Positions 5,057-54,718 of a stretch of DNA of 64,000 nucleotides are shown here, in pieces. The position numbers and the translations under genes were made by a program. Below the pieces are notes generated by a model that saw only the letters and a list, made by a program, of their open reading frames with translations, was not told where the DNA came from and did not search any database. The first letter of the stretch is position 1; every line of letters begins with the position of its first letter. Source of the stretch: an uncultured Nitrospirales bacterium (GTDB lineage: Bacteria; Nitrospirota; Nitrospiria; Nitrospirales; UBA8639); assembly GCA_958295805.1 (NCBI GenBank), contig OY282373.1, forward strand, positions 529,001 through 593,000. Direction: 5' to 3'.

Positions 5057-6780
5057 CTGATGAACCCAAGCACGAACATCTGACATCCGCGCCGGACGAT
5101 GCAGGCAAGGCTGCCGATGTCGAAATGCAGAGCCGTTTCAACGATCTCAGACGTGAAGTTCTCGAAGGCCGTGTGAAGCTTGTTGATTGGTGGCTCACCG
5201 CTACGGCCATATTTCTGACGTTGCTTGGTATTGTCGCCGTTATTGCCGGTTATCTCAGTTTCAAGACGTTCCGCGAAATCGAAGGCGAAGCCCGCCAAAA
5301 TATGGTGTTGTCCAAGCAACATGCAGAAGAAGCTAGGAGCCTTGTCAATGAGATCAAAGGGAAACGCGATGAGGCTGAGTCGATTGTGGCCGGATTGAAC
5401 GCGGAGGCTGTCGGTAAAGACCCGGATAAGGCTAGCGAGGCTGCGAAAAGTGTTCAAGAGAATCCCACGGCATCCCCGATACACCAAGCCATTGCCGTTG
5501 CTGTCCTGCTTCAACAGCAAGGAAAAATCGAGGAGGCACTCGAAAAGTGGCGTTCCATCGCCAATGTTGCGGAAGGAACGGACAAAGAACTTGAGGCTCG
5601 TGCATGGTTCTCCGTCGGCTATCTCTACTTCAAGAAAGGAGAGAAATCTGATTTCAAGGCGGCGATAAATGCCTACACCAAGACACTCCAACTGAAGCCA
5701 GACTTGGCCAAAGCCTACAACAACCGAGGTGTTGCGAACAGCAAGCTTGGTCAACATGCCGCTGCCATTGAGGACTACGACGCGGCGCTCCGATTTAAGC
5801 TGGACTATCCTGAAGCCTACAACAATCGGGGTAATGCGAAGCACGACCTTGGTCAACGTGCCGCTGCCATTGAGGACTACGATACGGCGCTCCGATTGAA
5901 ACCGGACTTGGCTGAAGCCTACAACAACCGGGGTAGTGCGAAGGACGACCTTGGTCAACATGCCGCTGCCATTGAGGACTACGATACGGCGCTCCGATTG
6001 AAGCCGGACTATGCTGAAGCCTACAACAATCGGGGTAATGTGAAGAACAACCTTGGCCAACATGCCGTTGCCATTGAGGACTACGATGCGGCGCTCCGAT
6101 TGAAACCGAACTTGGCCGAAACCTACAACAATCGGGGTAATGCGAAGGACGACCTTGGTCAACATGCCGCGGCCATCAAGGACTACGACGCGGCGCTCCG
6201 ATTGAAACCGGACTTGGCCGAAGCCTACAACAACCGGGGTAGTGCGAAGGACGACCTTGGTCAACATGCCGCGGCCATCAAGGACTACGATACGGCGCTC
6301 CGATTGAAGCCGGACTTGTCTGAAGTCTACAACAACCGGGGTAATGCGAAGAGCAAGCTTGGTCAACATGCTGCTGCCATCAAGGACTACGATGCGGCGC
6401 TCCGATTGAAGCCGGACTATACTGAAGCCTACTACAATCGGGGTAATGCGAAGAACAACCTTGGCCAACGTGCCGCTGCTATCAAGGACTACGACACGGT
6501 ACTCCGATTGAAGCCGGACTATGCTGAAGCCTACAACAACCGGGGTAGTGCGAAGAGCGACCTTGGCCAACATGCCGCTGCCATCAAGGACTACGACGCG
6601 GCGCTTCGGCTGAAGCCGGATTTGGCCGAAGTTTACAGGAACAGGGGCGTTACCAATGCGCGACTGGGCCGCAAGGACGAGGCTCGGCGGGATTTACAGA
6701 AGGCGCTTGACTTGGCTCGAAAGGGGGGCAACGAAGAATTGGCAACCAGATTGGAACAACGTCTCCAAAACCTTGAATGA
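5053..6780 (+). CDS. Membrane-anchored tetratricopeptide-repeat protein with near-identical tandem repeats
   Basis: The 575-residue protein has a hydrophilic N-terminus, one transmembrane segment at about residues 46-70 (WWLTATAIFLTLLGIVAVIA), a coiled-coil-like stretch (about 75-130), a linker, and ten 34-residue TPR units from about residue 210 onward. Nine of these are almost identical (YNNRGNAK..LGQHAAAI.DYDAALRLKPD). The protein likely displays a superhelical binding surface on one side of the inner membrane. Ligand and role are unknown. Its position after the methyltransferase/Vsr cassette and a SIR2 remnant, with an ATGA overlap, suggests it travelled with a defence module. A purine-rich Shine-Dalgarno-like GGTGGAGAGGG precedes the ATG. 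Confidence 0.85.
   Translation: MTDEPKHEHLTSAPDDAGKAADVEMQSRFNDLRREVLEGRVKLVDWWLTATAIFLTLLGIVAVIAGYLSFKTFREIEGEARQNMVLSKQHAEEARSLVNEIKGKRDEAESIVAGLNAEAVGKDPDKASEAAKSVQENPTASPIHQAIAVAVLLQQQGKIEEALEKWRSIANVAEGTDKELEARAWFSVGYLYFKKGEKSDFKAAINAYTKTLQLKPDLAKAYNNRGVANSKLGQHAAAIEDYDAALRFKLDYPEAYNNRGNAKHDLGQRAAAIEDYDTALRLKPDLAEAYNNRGSAKDDLGQHAAAIEDYDTALRLKPDYAEAYNNRGNVKNNLGQHAVAIEDYDAALRLKPNLAETYNNRGNAKDDLGQHAAAIKDYDAALRLKPDLAEAYNNRGSAKDDLGQHAAAIKDYDTALRLKPDLSEVYNNRGNAKSKLGQHAAAIKDYDAALRLKPDYTEAYYNRGNAKNNLGQRAAAIKDYDTVLRLKPDYAEAYNNRGSAKSDLGQHAAAIKDYDAALRLKPDLAEVYRNRGVTNARLGRKDEARRDLQKALDLARKGGNEELATRLEQRLQNLE
5713..6631 (+). repeat. Nine near-identical 102-bp tandem repeats encoding TPR units
   Basis: The DNA repeats with a 102-bp period, each unit containing variants of CTTGGTCAACATGCCGCTGC and GGCGCTCCGATTGAA. 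Differences are concentrated at a few codons, such as the AKDD/AKNN/AKSK positions and EDYD/KDYD. Nucleotide near-identity, not only protein similarity, implies recent unit expansion or gene conversion; unit number probably varies between strains. Confidence 0.9.
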
Positions 6781-38893: not shown

Positions 38894-40105
38894 CTAGCGT
38901 TCTTCAGCCAGTCGATACTTTTCCATCCGGTAGGCAATCTGACGCGGCGTCATGCCCAACAGCCTGGCGGCCTTGGCTTTGACCCACCCGGCTCGGTTAA
39001 GGGCTTCTCGAAGACGGTCCCGTTCGATCGCATCCAACCGGGCGGGAAGCGTTTGTTGGGAAGACGCGCTGCTTGACCTGGTTGCGGATTGCCCATGAAC
39101 CGCTCGCATGTGCTCAACGTATGGGACAAGTGATGCGGGAATGGTCCGTAACTCGATGGTCGGCGTCTCGGACAAGACGACCAACCGCTCAATACAATTT
39201 TGCAGTTCACGAACGTTGCCGGGCCAATGGTAGGCCTTCATCACCTGAATCAGGTCCTTCCCCAGGTGAATCTGCCGGTGATTGTCGCGATTGACCTTGT
39301 CGAGAAAATGCGTCATGAGCAACGGCACGTCGTCCGGCCGGTCACGTAAGGGAGGAAGCGTAAGCGGGACGACGTTGAGACGATAATACAAATCTTCTCG
39401 AAACTCCCCGGCCCGGACCATGGCTTCGAGATGACGATGGGTCGCGGCGATTACGCGGACGTCCACGGAGAGCGTCGGCCCACCTCCGACTCGTTCAAAT
39501 TCTTTCTCCTGCAGAACGCGCAGGAGTTTGACTTGGGTCGCCGGGGAAATATCACCCATTTCATCAAGAAACAGCGTGCCGCCGTGGGCTTGTTCCAAAC
39601 GCCCTTTTCTGGCCTGACTCGCGCCGGTGAAGGCCCCCCGTTCATGCCCGAACAGGGTGCTTTCCATCAAGGTCTCAGGTATGGCCGCACAATGCACCGC
39701 CACAAACGGTTGACCGGCACGCGCACTGGAAAGGTGAATCCGTTGCGCCGCCAACTCCTTGCCCGTTCCACTTTCTCCACGGAGCAAGACCGTGGCCGAG
39801 GTGAGCGAGATCCGCTGAATGGCCGCGTGGACGGCGTGCATCGCCGGACTGTTGCCAATCAGCACGGGAGTCTGCTTCTTTTTTCTTGAGAAGATCGGCG
39901 ATTGTGGAGCATCCACCGCGACTGGGTGACTTGGCGTTGACTTGAACGTTTCCGACGGCCGTTCAGGAGCCTGTGCCGGCTCAGCTTCCTGATTCAGCAA
40001 GTCCAGGGCTTGGCCGATCCGCGTTTCCGGGGAAGCCGTTCCATTCAGAATCGACCGGAGCCGGGAGATGAGACGGCGATCATCTTCTGTACGTTCATGT
40101 TTCAT
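38894..40105 (-). CDS. Sigma54-dependent transcriptional activator without an N-terminal sensor domain
   Basis: The 403-residue protein has only about 80 N-terminal residues of low-complexity sequence before the AAA+ core: Walker A GESGTGKE (110-117), the sigma54-contacting GAFTGA loop (157-162), Walker B GGTLFLDEMGDI, and the arginine-finger region EFREDLYYRLNVVPLTLPPL. A C-terminal Fis-type helix-turn-helix (about 360-400, LREALNRAGWVKAKAARLLG) recognises an upstream activator sequence. Receiver, GAF or PAS domains are missing, so activity is probably set by expression or a partner protein. A sigma54-type promoter lies 324 bp upstream facing away (40429-40444). Confidence 0.9.
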   Translation of the reverse strand: MKHERTEDDRRLISRLRSILNGTASPETRIGQALDLLNQEAEPAQAPERPSETFKSTPSHPVAVDAPQSPIFSRKKKQTPVLIGNSPAMHAVHAAIQRISLTSATVLLRGESGTGKELAAQRIHLSSARAGQPFVAVHCAAIPETLMESTLFGHERGAFTGASQARKGRLEQAHGGTLFLDEMGDISPATQVKLLRVLQEKEFERVGGGPTLSVDVRVIAATHRHLEAMVRAGEFREDLYYRLNVVPLTLPPLRDRPDDVPLLMTHFLDKVNRDNHRQIHLGKDLIQVMKAYHWPGNVRELQNCIERLVVLSETPTIELRTIPASLVPYVEHMRAVHGQSATRSSSASSQQTLPARLDAIERDRLREALNRAGWVKAKAARLLGMTPRQIAYRMEKYRLAEER

Positions 40106-40280: not shown

Positions 40281-40321
40281 TAAAAAAACGCCCTTTCCCA
40301 ACTCCGTTGGGGAAGGACGTT
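40281..40321 (-). terminator. Strong Rho-independent terminator
   Basis: Read on the reverse strand, AACGTCCTTCCCCAAC, a CGGA loop and GTTGGGAAAGGGCGTT form a long stem with one mismatch and one wobble or bulge, followed directly by TTTTTTT. No protein gene on that strand lies close upstream, hence the sRNA/leader proposal. Confidence 0.75.
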
Positions 40322-40371
40322 CATTGTCCCCGCACGGTCACGCCGTGCAGAATAACGACCTTGTTATTCTG
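40281..40371 (-). ncRNA. Candidate ~90-nt small RNA or attenuated leader of the sigma54 activator gene
   Basis: On the reverse strand a sigma70-like promoter (40378-40405) is followed by three stem-loops: GCAGAATAAC/GTTATTCTGC (40347-40372, perfect 10-bp arms, 6-nt loop), GCACGG/CCGTGC (40332-40348) and a terminator stem with a T run (40283-40321). No good reading frame with a start codon exists inside. The product would be a compact, structured transcript ending 176 bp before the activator's start codon. It may be a free sRNA or a leader with conditional termination. Confidence 0.5.
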
Positions 40372-40377
40372 CGCGTA

Positions 40378-40405
40378 GTTAAACGCACTTTTTCCCGTTT
40401 GTCAA
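40378..40405 (-). promoter_or_regulatory. Sigma70-like promoter of the candidate small RNA/leader
   Basis: TTGACA (40400-40405) and TTTAAC (40378-40383) on the reverse strand are spaced by 16 bp; predicted transcription starts at about 40371, at the foot of the first stem-loop. Confidence 0.5.
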
Positions 40406-40428: not shown

Positions 40429-40444
40429 TTGGCACTCGGGTTGC
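40429..40444 (+). promoter_or_regulatory. Sigma54-type (-24/-12) promoter
   Basis: TTGGCAC-N5-TTGC matches the -24 GG and -12 GC elements with correct spacing. It points to the TIGR01777-DUF523-MerR-CbiX genes, whose first start codon is about 250 bp downstream. The divergent neighbour encodes a sigma54 activator, and the perfect palindrome at 40347-40372 is at a plausible distance for an upstream activator site. Confidence 0.5.
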
Positions 40445-41768: not shown

Positions 41769-42782
41769 ATGACCTCTCTCTCGCCACACGGTCCGCATGC
41801 CGACGCCGTCCCTGAGACGGCTCCCTCTGCCGACTTCCCTCTTCGCCTGGGAATCAGCCGATGTCTGTTGGGCGATCCCGTCCGATACAATGGCGGCCAT
41901 ACGCGGGATCATTTTCTGGTGGACGTTCTCGGGCCACACGTGGAGTGGGTCCCGGTGTGTCCCGAAGTCGAGGCTGGATTCGGCACCCCGCGCGAAGCCA
42001 TGCGCTTAGTCGATGACGTCGAATGTCCTCGCTTGATAACCATTCGTTCGTGCATCGATCATACCGAGATCATGCGCCGGTATACGAACACGCGGTTGCG
42101 TGATCTTCGATCGTGCAACCTGTCCGGGTACGTGTTCAAAAAAAATTCTCCGAGCTGCGGGACCCGGCGCGTGCGCGTGTATGACCGGCAAGGCCGACTT
42201 CTGGGAACGGGTAAAGGTCTGTTTGCGGATGCGTTTCAACGCGAGTTTCCGTTGATTCCCGTTGAGGAAGAAGGTCGGTTGCAAGACCGGATGCTTCGAG
42301 AACATTTCATTGAGCGCGTCTTTGGTTATCACCGGTGGCAATCGTCTACCCTGAGCAGACGACTCACCCGTGGGGACCTGGTCTCCTTTCATACGACTCA
42401 TAAATATCTCTTATTGGCCCACAGCCGCCGACATTACCAACGGCTTGGGCAATTAGTGGCCAACGCCAACCGGTTCTCGACTCGCCAATCAGCGGACGCG
42501 TACGGACGCCTGTTCATGGAAGCCTTAGCCGTCAAAACCACGATCCGCAAGCACGTGAACGTCCTCCAACACGTCGTCGGGCATTTCAAAGGCACGTTGA
42601 GTTCCACGGCCCGCCGTGACCTCCACGACGTGTTGACTGATTATCAGAAGGGAGTCGTGCCCCTGAGCGTGCCTGTCACCTTGATCCGGCATTACGTCCG
42701 CGTCCTGGATGTCCCCTACCTCCGCGAGCAGGTGTATCTTGCGCCGCATCCGAAGGAATTGACGCTGCGACACCATGTCTAA
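41769..42782 (+). CDS. DUF523-DUF1722 (YbgA-like) fusion protein
   Basis: The 337-residue protein has an N-terminal DUF523 domain (LGISRCLLGDPVRYNGGH, VCPEVEAGFGTPREAMRLV, FKKNSPSCGTRRVRVY, with conserved cysteines) and a C-terminal DUF1722/YbgA domain (VSFHTTHKYLLLAHSRRHYQ, HVNVLQHVVGHFKGTLSS, DYQKGVVPLSVPVTLIRHY). YbgA-type proteins are often encoded beside photolyase and MerR-type light regulators; their biochemistry is unclear. The stop overlaps the MerR gene start by 8 bp. The spacer before it (41658-41768) carries TTCGAGACTCAGGGC repeats. Confidence 0.88.
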   Translation: MTSLSPHGPHADAVPETAPSADFPLRLGISRCLLGDPVRYNGGHTRDHFLVDVLGPHVEWVPVCPEVEAGFGTPREAMRLVDDVECPRLITIRSCIDHTEIMRRYTNTRLRDLRSCNLSGYVFKKNSPSCGTRRVRVYDRQGRLLGTGKGLFADAFQREFPLIPVEEEGRLQDRMLREHFIERVFGYHRWQSSTLSRRLTRGDLVSFHTTHKYLLLAHSRRHYQRLGQLVANANRFSTRQSADAYGRLFMEALAVKTTIRKHVNVLQHVVGHFKGTLSSTARRDLHDVLTDYQKGVVPLSVPVTLIRHYVRVLDVPYLREQVYLAPHPKELTLRHHV

Positions 42783-43707
42783 CGTTCAGACTCACCCATC
42801 AGGATACAGAATGAAACGGCTCTCGGAGTTGACGGGATTGAGTCGCCACGTCCTTCGAAAATGGGAACAACGCTATACGTTCCTCTCCCCACGACGCACA
42901 ACGAATGGGTATCGCCTCTACGATCTCGAAGAACTGCAACTGTTGCTTTTCCTCAAACACCAATTGACCAACGGCCTTTCAATCGGCCGACTTGCCCGTC
43001 AAGGCCGTGCGGCCTTACTCGCCGAGATGAACGCCGGCCCCATTGACGTGCATCACGTTCCCCAGGATTCCCAAACCCAGGCCCGCGATTTGATCCAGGC
43101 GGCACGCAGGGGCGACCAGGCAGCCGTGGACCGGACCATCGCCCTGATCATTCAGCAACGGGGATTTGATGAAGCCTTGACCGGCGTCTTTTTCCCGGTT
43201 CTCCAAACCATCGGCGAACTCTGGCACCAAGGCCGGATCAGTATCACCGGAGAGCAGTCGGTCTCGCGAACGATTCAACGGTTGTTGGTCCAATCTCATC
43301 AGCATCAAAACCGTACCACCCGTCCGCATGCCTTGATCGCCTGCGTGCCCAATGATTTTCATGAAATCGGCGCCATGTCCGCGGCGAGGCTTCTTCGCAA
43401 CAACGGATGGAACACAACCTATCTCGGCCCCGACGTGAACGTCGATGTCGTTCGTTTGGCTTGCCGGCGACGCCATGGAAAACTCGTGCTCTTCTCCTGC
43501 GCCGTCGAACCCCCGTCGTCGGACATGAAAAATCTGGTTGACGATATCGTCCGGCAATTGTTGCCCCTGACAAAGGTGGTCATGGGCGGCAGAGGGGCTG
43601 ACTCATACCGGGATTGGCTTGAACGACGCGGCATCCGGTATATTGTCGAGATAGAACGCGTACAGGCAATAACGCCCCGTTTACTTGGACGTTCCAACAC
43701 GGCTTAG
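42775..43707 (+). CDS. MerR-family regulator with C-terminal cobalamin-binding domain (CarH/LitR-like)
   Basis: Residues 11-80 form a MerR-type winged helix (MKRLSELTGLSRHVLRKWEQ). A helical cap domain contains W150-H151 and E160-Q161 in GELWHQGRISITGEQ, and a Rossmann-like B12-binding domain has D194-F-H196-E-I-G199 (DxHxxG, lower axial His) and VVMGGRGADS. In CarH-type photoreceptors the cap motif is W-x9-E-H; here the last residue is Q. The histidine next to Trp, used in the light-adapted bis-His state of CarH, is present. It probably represses its own cluster and responds to AdoCbl with or without light. Confidence 0.87.
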   Translation: MSNVQTHPSGYRMKRLSELTGLSRHVLRKWEQRYTFLSPRRTTNGYRLYDLEELQLLLFLKHQLTNGLSIGRLARQGRAALLAEMNAGPIDVHHVPQDSQTQARDLIQAARRGDQAAVDRTIALIIQQRGFDEALTGVFFPVLQTIGELWHQGRISITGEQSVSRTIQRLLVQSHQHQNRTTRPHALIACVPNDFHEIGAMSAARLLRNNGWNTTYLGPDVNVDVVRLACRRRHGKLVLFSCAVEPPSSDMKNLVDDIVRQLLPLTKVVMGGRGADSYRDWLERRGIRYIVEIERVQAITPRLLGRSNTA

Positions 43708-43743
43708 CAACGCGACTGCCGTCACGTCAGAAAAGAGGGAACC

Positions 43744-44277
43744 ATGAGTGATTCAACAACAGGCGTGGTACTCGTTGGGCATGGAGGCATTCCTAAAGAC
43801 TACCCCGGAGAACTGGTCACGAAGCTCAAACGGCTGGAGGCCCAACGACGCGCCGCAGGAGTTCCGATGTCCCAGGAGGAATATGACCTTGACCAGAAAA
43901 TCCGGCTGTGGCCTCGAACCCCGGAAACCGACCCCTATCAAGCCGGGCTTGAACGATTGGCCATCCGCCTCAAGTCTCTCCTGGGTGGGGCACGATTTTC
44001 CCTGGCGTATAACGAGTTTTGCACGCCCACGCTCGGCGAAGCCATTGAACGACAAATCGCCGACGGAGCTAAAGACGTTACCGTGGTCTCCACCATGTTC
44101 ACGCCGGGCGGCTCGCACTCGGAATATGAAATTCCCGAGGAACTGGCAGCCCTGCGCAAGCACTATCCCGACGTGACCTTGACCTACGCCTGGCCCTTCG
44201 ATCTGGACAAGGTCGCGGAGATGCTCTCGGACCATCTCCAACGGTTTCAGGGTAATCCGGTGGCCAGTGGACAGTGA
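43744..44277 (+). CDS. CbiX/SirB-like chelatase family protein
   Basis: The 177-residue protein shows the chelatase fold: VVLVGHGGIPKDYPGEL with the metal-binding His near the N-terminus, RFSLAYNEFCTPTLGEAIER, and VVSTMFTPGGSHSEYEIPEEL, a class II chelatase-type segment. Small single-domain CbiX proteins insert Co or Fe into sirohydrochlorin, but an unusual inserted segment (AQRRAAGVPMSQEEYDLDQK) separates this from the standard enzyme. Following a B12-sensing regulator, a tetrapyrrole-related role is plausible. GAGGGAACC precedes the ATG. Confidence 0.75.
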   Translation: MSDSTTGVVLVGHGGIPKDYPGELVTKLKRLEAQRRAAGVPMSQEEYDLDQKIRLWPRTPETDPYQAGLERLAIRLKSLLGGARFSLAYNEFCTPTLGEAIERQIADGAKDVTVVSTMFTPGGSHSEYEIPEELAALRKHYPDVTLTYAWPFDLDKVAEMLSDHLQRFQGNPVASGQ

Positions 44278-44403
44278 CCGGTGACCAGCGCCAAGGATGA
44301 GAGAGTTTCTCGTCTGTCTAAGGTTTTCTTGATTTTATGTTGTGGATGCTCTACAAAGGAAGGCATCATATACGTGATTTAACCATCTTGAAAGGAGGAT
44401 GTT

Positions 44404-45357
44404 ATGCAAACCGTTCATCTTAAAACGAAGTCTTGGACCGTCGGTGTCCTCTTTTCCGTCATGATCGTAGGAGTGCTGATGACGGTGGGGCAGGTGCCGT
44501 TGGCGGTGAGCCAACCGGTGACGATTCCCGTGGGTCAGATCAGCGGGGCGATTCCGATGGATGCGGCGAACCCGGTGTGGGAGACGGTGCCGGGGATTGT
44601 GGTGCCGCTGAGTGGGCAAACCATTACGACTCCGATGCATCCCAACATCTCGGTGAAGACCGTGATGGTCAAGATGGCCACGAACGGCAAAGAGATCGGG
44701 GTGTGGGCGAACTGGGGCGATCAAACGTTGAACAACACCACCATTGGGCCGCAGGATTTCCGGGATCAAGTGGCGGTGCAATTTCCGGTGCAAACCTCTG
44801 GGGCGCCGCCGTTCCAATGTATGGGGCAATCAGGGGGCACGGTGAACATCTGGCGCTGGAACGCGGAATGGCAACGGGACATGGGCGCGGGTGTGGCGGG
44901 GATGTGGGACGTGGATCAACAGTATCCGTCGATTGCGTGGGACTTTTACTATGAGGAGCCGGCCGGGGGGGTGACGTATCCGGATCGGATTGGGCGGAGT
45001 TTGGGGCCGTTCAATCCGGGGATTTGGTCGGGGAACATCCTGTCGGATCCGGATTTGCGGGCGAGTTCGGTGGAGGATTTGAACGCGAACGGGTTCAGCA
45101 CGTTGACGACGCAGGCGTCGCAGGACGTGATGGGGAATGGGCTGTGGGAACCGTATGGGGCGTTGAAAGGCGGGTGTTGCAGTGGGCCGACGTGGCGGGT
45201 AGTGATGAAGCGGGCGTTGGCGACGAATGACGCGAACGACGTGCAGTTCGGGGCCGGGCAGAGCGTTCCGGTGGCGTTTGCGGTGTGGGACGGGCAGAAC
45301 GTGGAACGGAACGGCATGAAGGGCATCTCGACTTGGTTCACCGCTAAAATGCCGTAA
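44404..45357 (+). CDS. Secreted ethylbenzene-dehydrogenase-like heme b protein, nitrite oxidoreductase gamma-subunit candidate
   Basis: The 317-residue protein has a signal peptide (GVLFSVMIVGVLMTVGQVPL...AVS) and an EB_dh/DMSO reductase family type II gamma-like beta-sandwich: MDAANPVWETVPGIVVPLSG, VKMATNGKEIGVWANWGDQT, DQVAVQFPV, WRVVMKRAL and PVAFAVWDGQNVERNG. Gamma subunits of this family bind heme b through Met and Lys ligands and pass electrons between the iron-sulfur subunit and a cytochrome c. In Nitrospira, such proteins are candidate NxrC. No nxrA/nxrB is in the window. GGAGG precedes the start, and a strong terminator follows (45409-45452), suggesting high, separate expression. Codon use is heavily GC-ending. 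Confidence 0.8.
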   Translation: MQTVHLKTKSWTVGVLFSVMIVGVLMTVGQVPLAVSQPVTIPVGQISGAIPMDAANPVWETVPGIVVPLSGQTITTPMHPNISVKTVMVKMATNGKEIGVWANWGDQTLNNTTIGPQDFRDQVAVQFPVQTSGAPPFQCMGQSGGTVNIWRWNAEWQRDMGAGVAGMWDVDQQYPSIAWDFYYEEPAGGVTYPDRIGRSLGPFNPGIWSGNILSDPDLRASSVEDLNANGFSTLTTQASQDVMGNGLWEPYGALKGGCCSGPTWRVVMKRALATNDANDVQFGAGQSVPVAFAVWDGQNVERNGMKGISTWFTAKMP

Positions 45358-54496: not shown

Positions 54497-54604
54497 AAAG
54501 ATTTTGGTGAACATTCCCCTACTTCCAGCCTTCACAGTCTTACCCTGGACCATGGCGAATTGACAAGAAAAAAGGCAAAGCGTACGATAGGAAGTATGAC
54601 GATG

Positions 54605-54695
54605 AGCTAGGGGAGCCGAAGGCGGCTGAGAGTCTTCATTTGGAGACAACCCTTATCACCTGATCTGGGTAATTCCAGCGTAGGGAAGCGGTGAT
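54605..54695 (+). promoter_or_regulatory. TPP (thi-box) riboswitch
   Basis: The conserved THI elements are present in order: GGGGAGCC, GGCTGAGAG, ACCCTTATCACCTGATCTG and GGGTAATTCCAGCGTAGGGA. It binds thiamin pyrophosphate and switches off the thiC operon by folding the terminator just downstream (54721-54750). Confidence 0.95.
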
Positions 54696-54718
54696 GAAAG
54701 AAGACGTTTCCAAATAGA

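Follow-up and report, generated by a model that had tools for sequence, protein, structure and literature searches.

The 125-nt element on the minus strand of the window (the whole stretch of 64,000 nucleotides analysed here) at positions 40405-40281 is very probably the 5' leader of a sigma54 activator gene, acting as a cis transcription attenuator under the control of an ANTAR protein; both the binding of this protein and the antitermination are predicted from the sequence. The reading of the leader as an ANTAR target is based on two hairpins exhibiting A at the first and G at the fourth loop position (A1/G4) and AC/GU closing pairs, the signature described for such targets (PMC3369931). The downstream gene (38894 to 40105, minus strand) exhibits an AAA+ domain, a lid and a Fis-type HTH in a domain search, which recognises no domain ahead of AAA+ in residues 1-80. 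Since there is no recognisable sensor domain, the amount of the activator is a likely control point.

Nitrospira are major nitrite oxidisers. To our knowledge, nitrogen sensing in Nitrospira is poorly known. A search of the open literature, with most subscription journals outside its coverage, did not turn up any paper on Nitrospira that deals with ANTAR control.

Promoter, competing hairpins and terminators

Read on the minus strand, the element consists of TTGACA, a 17-nt spacer, TTAACT, hairpin P1, a linker, hairpin P2 and a terminator with its U-tract, followed after 176 nt by the activator ATG (40105), exactly the distance given in the original prediction. The -35 hexamer TTGACA (40405-40400) fits the consensus at 6/6 positions and is identical in 11/11 leaders of the genus. 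The -10 hexamer TTAACT (40382-40377) fits at 3/6 positions and is conserved in the genus, save for a one-base deletion in genome G011. The promoter had been called near-consensus; in view of the -10 this description is generous, and the pair is absent from a promoter scan requiring 4/6 matches per hexamer. Transcription of the leader would start at about 40370.

P1 (40372-40347) is a perfect 10-bp stem, GCAGAATAAC[AAGGTC]GTTATTCTGC. Its hexaloop AAGGUC, with A1, G4 and an AC/GU closing, is what is expected of the first hairpin of an ANTAR target (an A1/G4 hexaloop on a stem of 3 bp or more). The linker folds into a second perfect hairpin, GCACGG[CGTGA]CCGTGC (40348-40332). Two perfect hairpins are thus present as originally described, but the second is found in this genome only and not in relatives, which rules out a conserved role for it.

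Two further structures had escaped the original prediction. The first is P2 (40331-40313), GGGGAC[AAUGAAC]GUCCUU, the loop of which carries A1 and G4 and is 7 nt long when fully paired, in the window as in family f1, where an ANTAR target would be expected to have a loop of 6. The 3' arm of P2, GUCCUU, is also the 5' arm of the intrinsic terminator (40322-40282), so that on paper the two cannot coexist; such an overlap, expected of ANTAR targets, is seen in 11/11 leaders of the genus. The computed stabilities are about -6 kcal/mol for P2 and about -20 kcal/mol for the terminator, which deserves the earlier description as strong (13-14 pairs, about -20.6 kcal/mol, a 7-U tract). The second is another terminator-like hairpin (40199-40126), adjoining the gene and ending with a weak U-tract. 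It starts with UUGGC[AAAGGC]GCCGG, whose P2-like hexaloop corresponds to the P2 seen in family f3, and may act as a second gate on the activator; it is missing in genomes G001 and G008. The element as first observed is therefore real, with corrections concerning the promoter, the second hairpin and the overlooked P2.

For the 125-nt minus strand, the computed folding energy is -48.8 kcal/mol (z = -4.2), a value equalled by 1 of 200 shuffles. The plus strand is also well folded (z = -5.1), because palindromes fold on both strands. No Rfam family was matched at gathering or relaxed thresholds, the top score being only 12.4 bits for msiK (gathering threshold 33). We considered a leader peptide (ATG AAC GTC CTT CCC within P2) and dropped it: the short ORF is not conserved and the position of its stop varies. 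A GAGG-like sequence lies only about 3 nt from this ORF.

From this layout we predict the following course of events. RNA polymerase would make P1, the linker and P2. By default, the more stable terminator would capture the 3' arm of P2 and transcription would end after about 90 nt. When a signal activates the GAF-GAF-ANTAR protein, its dimer would grip P1 and P2 by their A1/G4 loops; P2 would then be held, the terminator blocked, and the polymerase could reach the activator gene, with the second P2-like terminator just upstream of it as a probable further checkpoint.

Conservation and linkage to the activator gene

A search for the sequence elsewhere, as had been proposed for the hairpin, finds the element in single copy in its genome, which rules out an integron attC, a REP or another dispersed repeat. 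It is conserved (74-79%) in 10 of the 13 relatives of the genus. Among the 14 genomes of the genus, the leader is present in 11, exactly those with the activator, and the remaining three are without both. The U-tract is only about 30 nt from the ATG in G001 and G008, so that the activator could hardly be expressed there except through the terminator. Named records sharing the leader core are from Nitrospirales and Nitrospira sp. MAGs.

These observations bear on the two roles originally offered, a separate sRNA or a leader that controls the activator through its terminator. In the former case the element, equipped with promoter and terminator, would give an independent sRNA of about 90 nt that acts in trans, and the activator would use another promoter. 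Such an arrangement is very improbable. It is true that the 125 bp hold a complete transcription unit of conserved sequence, that the 176 nt between terminator and gene would suffice for a second promoter, and that sRNAs sequestering an ANTAR protein exist, as exemplified by EutX (PMC5821096, PMC8934654). However, the position of the element is not independent of the neighbouring gene, as gains and losses of the leader parallel those of the activator, and the short interval in G001 and G008 hardly offers space for a promoter of the activator's own. The terminated RNA would sequester ANTAR poorly, because the terminator consumes P2, which is needed for binding. The place directly before the gene, kept throughout the order while the sequence changes, also fits cis control. 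The leader reading is thus upheld by co-occurrence, by the short gap in these two genomes and by the overlapping antiterminator. Terminated leader transcripts of about 90 nt would be expected to build up and to resemble an sRNA on a Northern blot.

Activator orthologues (E <= 1e-95) are found in 36 of the 235 genomes of the order. We excluded five of these: G014, with an N gap upstream; G055, which we regard as a different activator because of a GAF-domain coding sequence upstream; and three f4 genomes without an ANTAR match. The last three also lack the module (P1 and P2) and form a small natural control. The remaining 31 orthologues are readable and come from ANTAR-bearing genomes (11 of the genus, 8 others of f1, 12 of f3). 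Of these, 30 have P1 and P2 ahead of the activator, 19 being outside the genus and differing in their stems. The lone exception is G220, where the activator follows an amtB-like gene with no module directly upstream. Other genera of f1 exhibit, for instance, GGUGAC[GGAGCG]GUCACC as P1 and GGAC[AACGAAC]GUCC as P2; an f3 example has CCCGAC[AACGUC]GUCGGG and UGGC[AAAGGC]GCCA. The f3 orthologues thus possess true P2 hexaloops (AAAGGC, AACGGC). P1 loops throughout the order are AANGNN or close variants, a few with G at position 1; module loops in general have A or G at position 1, G at position 4, and AC/GU or GC/GC closing pairs.

The compensatory changes in relatives, the lack of which was to refute the original prediction, are clearly present in P1. 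Across 21 distinct sequences, 5 of the 7 pairs exhibit changes on both sides, with 39 doubly changed cells against 15 in shuffled alignments. The covariation score is 0.719 against 0.259, a level reached in 0/500 shuffles, which leave the relatedness of the sequences in place. Sliding the alignment abolishes the signal. G020 exhibits one mispair in P1. P2 is too invariant within the genus for covariation to appear.

A strict scan for a P1 hexaloop, P2 and a terminator overlapping P2 matches 23 of 36 real upstream regions and 0/2160 dinucleotide shuffles; most of the misses have a terminator of a shape too irregular to satisfy the rule, and G025 was mis-indexed although its module is present. 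These numbers bear on a reading of the element as a plain terminator with an upstream inverted repeat, either an operator or chance hairpins, and no regulatory antitermination. Terminators and palindromes are common, and the linker hairpin is indeed lineage-specific; yet the absence of the module from the shuffles, the covariation of P1 and the persistence of P1-P2 in 30 orthologues make this explanation hardly credible.

Other module-bearing genes and the ANTAR protein

A model built from the activator leaders (R1) picked up further members. Control windows submitted to the strict scan gave matches in 12 of 728, all of them on inspection further leaders (4 before the activator, 6 before an NrtA-like gene, 2 before porin genes). 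In the genome studied here, a module (G000:C1:1906958-1906863) heads a BBP2 porin-amtB-PII-amtB-glnA cluster. In relatives, a second porin-like gene is preceded by a module, as are nadE and an NrtA-like substrate-binding gene; nadE is next to the ANTAR gene, and only P2 is clear in its leader. The second porin of the genus resembles OprP by eye; its N-terminal 150 aa have no match in Pfam. In most f3 loci, glnA immediately precedes the activator, and the f3 nadE and porin leaders have clean hexaloops. The strict scan finds no f3 module within 1.5 kb of amtB; modules lie further upstream of this gene, before a porin-like ORF or nadE.

Two observations concern individual leaders. The nadE leader of the present genome (L039, about 5590-5830; G000:C1, about 2411600-2411830) has lost its promoter and hexaloop and contains an insertion with palindromic CGTCATTCCCGCG repeats; a terminator-like tail before nadE persists. 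Among the tabulated leaders (L001, L047, L076, L109, L168, L170 and others), the loop-to-loop P1-P2 spacing is bimodal, with about 31-37 nt for a GGAC-type P2 and 15-20 nt for a UGGC-type P2.

A -24/-12-like site, TGGCAC-N5-TTGC, is located divergently from the leader (40430-40444, plus strand). In six relatives an NrtA-like gene occupies the divergent position and has a TGGCAY-N5-TTGC sigma54-type promoter and its own ANTAR-type module. Sigma54 sites across the genome are no commoner than chance (8 matches against 7 in a reversed control). In the present genome the site faces a gene for an NAD-dependent epimerase (DUF1731), and the NrtA-like transporter gene appears to have been lost or moved. 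Downstream of the site (41769-45357) is a run of genes for a 2-thiouracil desulfurase/DUF1722 protein, a MerR-B12-binding regulator, a CbiX-like protein and a protein of the ethylbenzene-dehydrogenase type. A TPP riboswitch (71 bits) is found at 54599-54703 (plus strand).

The genome encodes one GAF-GAF-ANTAR protein (ANTAR match at G000:C1:2411874-2412029), and an ANTAR protein, one per genome, is present in 48/48 family genomes searched. In the genome studied here the gene sits between aroB and nadE-glnD. EutV and NasR both align with the ANTAR domain of its product. PMC8934654 discusses a number of EutV residues; as mapped to our protein by our own reading of the alignment, R142, K143, E146, K149, E160, M172, N173 and R175 are kept, K147R and Y164F are substitutions, and two RNA-contact residues are changed (R168Q, R177S).

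The distribution of this protein was also surveyed in f3. Among 20 f3 genomes tested, amtB is present in 10/10 with the ANTAR protein and in 0/10 without. AmoB is the marker here for ammonia oxidation; in genus g29 it occurs in 13 of the 17 genomes that lack ANTAR and in 0 of the 10 that have it (f3 survey, G087-G195), and G195 (g31) possesses ANTAR, amtB and AmoB together. The ANTAR protein and AmtB thus seem to be lost together, for the most part in genomes of the comammox type.

An attenuator may in principle operate without ANTAR, P1 and P2 being sensed by a small-molecule riboswitch or by another RNA-binding protein. The indirect nature of the ANTAR assignment and the 7-nt P2 loop of f1 leave some room for this. 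Nevertheless, it is very unlikely: Rfam offers no match, the main loop feature across the order is the ANTAR signature (G4, mostly A1, AC/GU closing), and further nitrogen genes, all of them in genomes encoding the ANTAR protein, are headed by the module as well. With control by ANTAR, the proposal that the terminator links the activator level to some signal stands and can be narrowed to the input of a single GAF-GAF-ANTAR protein; judged from the target genes, this input would be nitrogen-related. As the module also stands before genes for the uptake of ammonium and the synthesis of glutamine and NAD in this or related genomes, the leader appears to belong to a circuit for nitrogen control. 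If this reading is right, a single RNA-binding protein would coordinate these three processes and a sigma54 regulator through transcription attenuation, and the regulon would offer a way to study a GAF-type ANTAR protein, its ligand being the input.

More tentatively, these elements could belong to a two-tier circuit extending over the Nitrospirales, a possibility to which we give somewhat less than even weight. Through antitermination, one GAF-GAF-ANTAR protein would govern the nitrogen-uptake operons and also how much of a sensor-less sigma54 activator is supplied, and the activator would drive the sigma54 promoter of an ANTAR-module transporter transcript, forming a feed-forward loop. The same protein would read both spacing classes (about 15-20 and 31-37 nt).

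Comparison with known ANTAR systems

The P1-P2 gap is 15 nt in the window, 20-24 nt in other members of the genus and up to 30 nt in f1, and a similar gap is usual among other leaders of the order. Because of this long gap and the 7-nt P2 loop, we file the element as a variant rather than a plain member of the ANTAR targets. ANTAR-sequestering sRNAs of the EutX type are RNAs with dual hexaloops. In contrast to EutX, there is no sign of a trans role here, the module being always directly before a gene.

The element shares with the eut (EutV), nasF (NasR) and amiE (AmiR) leaders two small A1/G4 hairpins with AC/GU closing, the overlap of the second hairpin with an intrinsic terminator, and nitrogen-related genes downstream (PMC3369931). 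Unlike them, it is followed by a sigma54 activator gene with a second terminator before it, and in f1 it exhibits the 7-nt P2 loop and wider gap. This gap exceeds that of eut leaders (5-12 nt), in which the addition of 20 nt abolishes activity (PMC8934654), but falls mostly inside the 2-25 nt linker permitted in actinobacterial ANTAR RNAs (PMC8164766). The latter have the dual stem-loop in common with our element; few of them precede a terminator, and overlap with the RBS or start codon is frequent, whereas here a strong terminator overlaps P2. The GAF-GAF-ANTAR type of protein was without a characterised example in 2012 (PMC3369931). In other phyla, ANTAR RNAs have been predicted before ammonium transporter, P-II and glutamine synthase genes (PMC3369931). 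The predicted nitrogen regulons of Desulfotomaculum and Pelobacter (PMC3369931) involve the same types of genes and several modules per genome; the present case differs in belonging to the Nitrospirota and in including nadE and the sigma54 activator.
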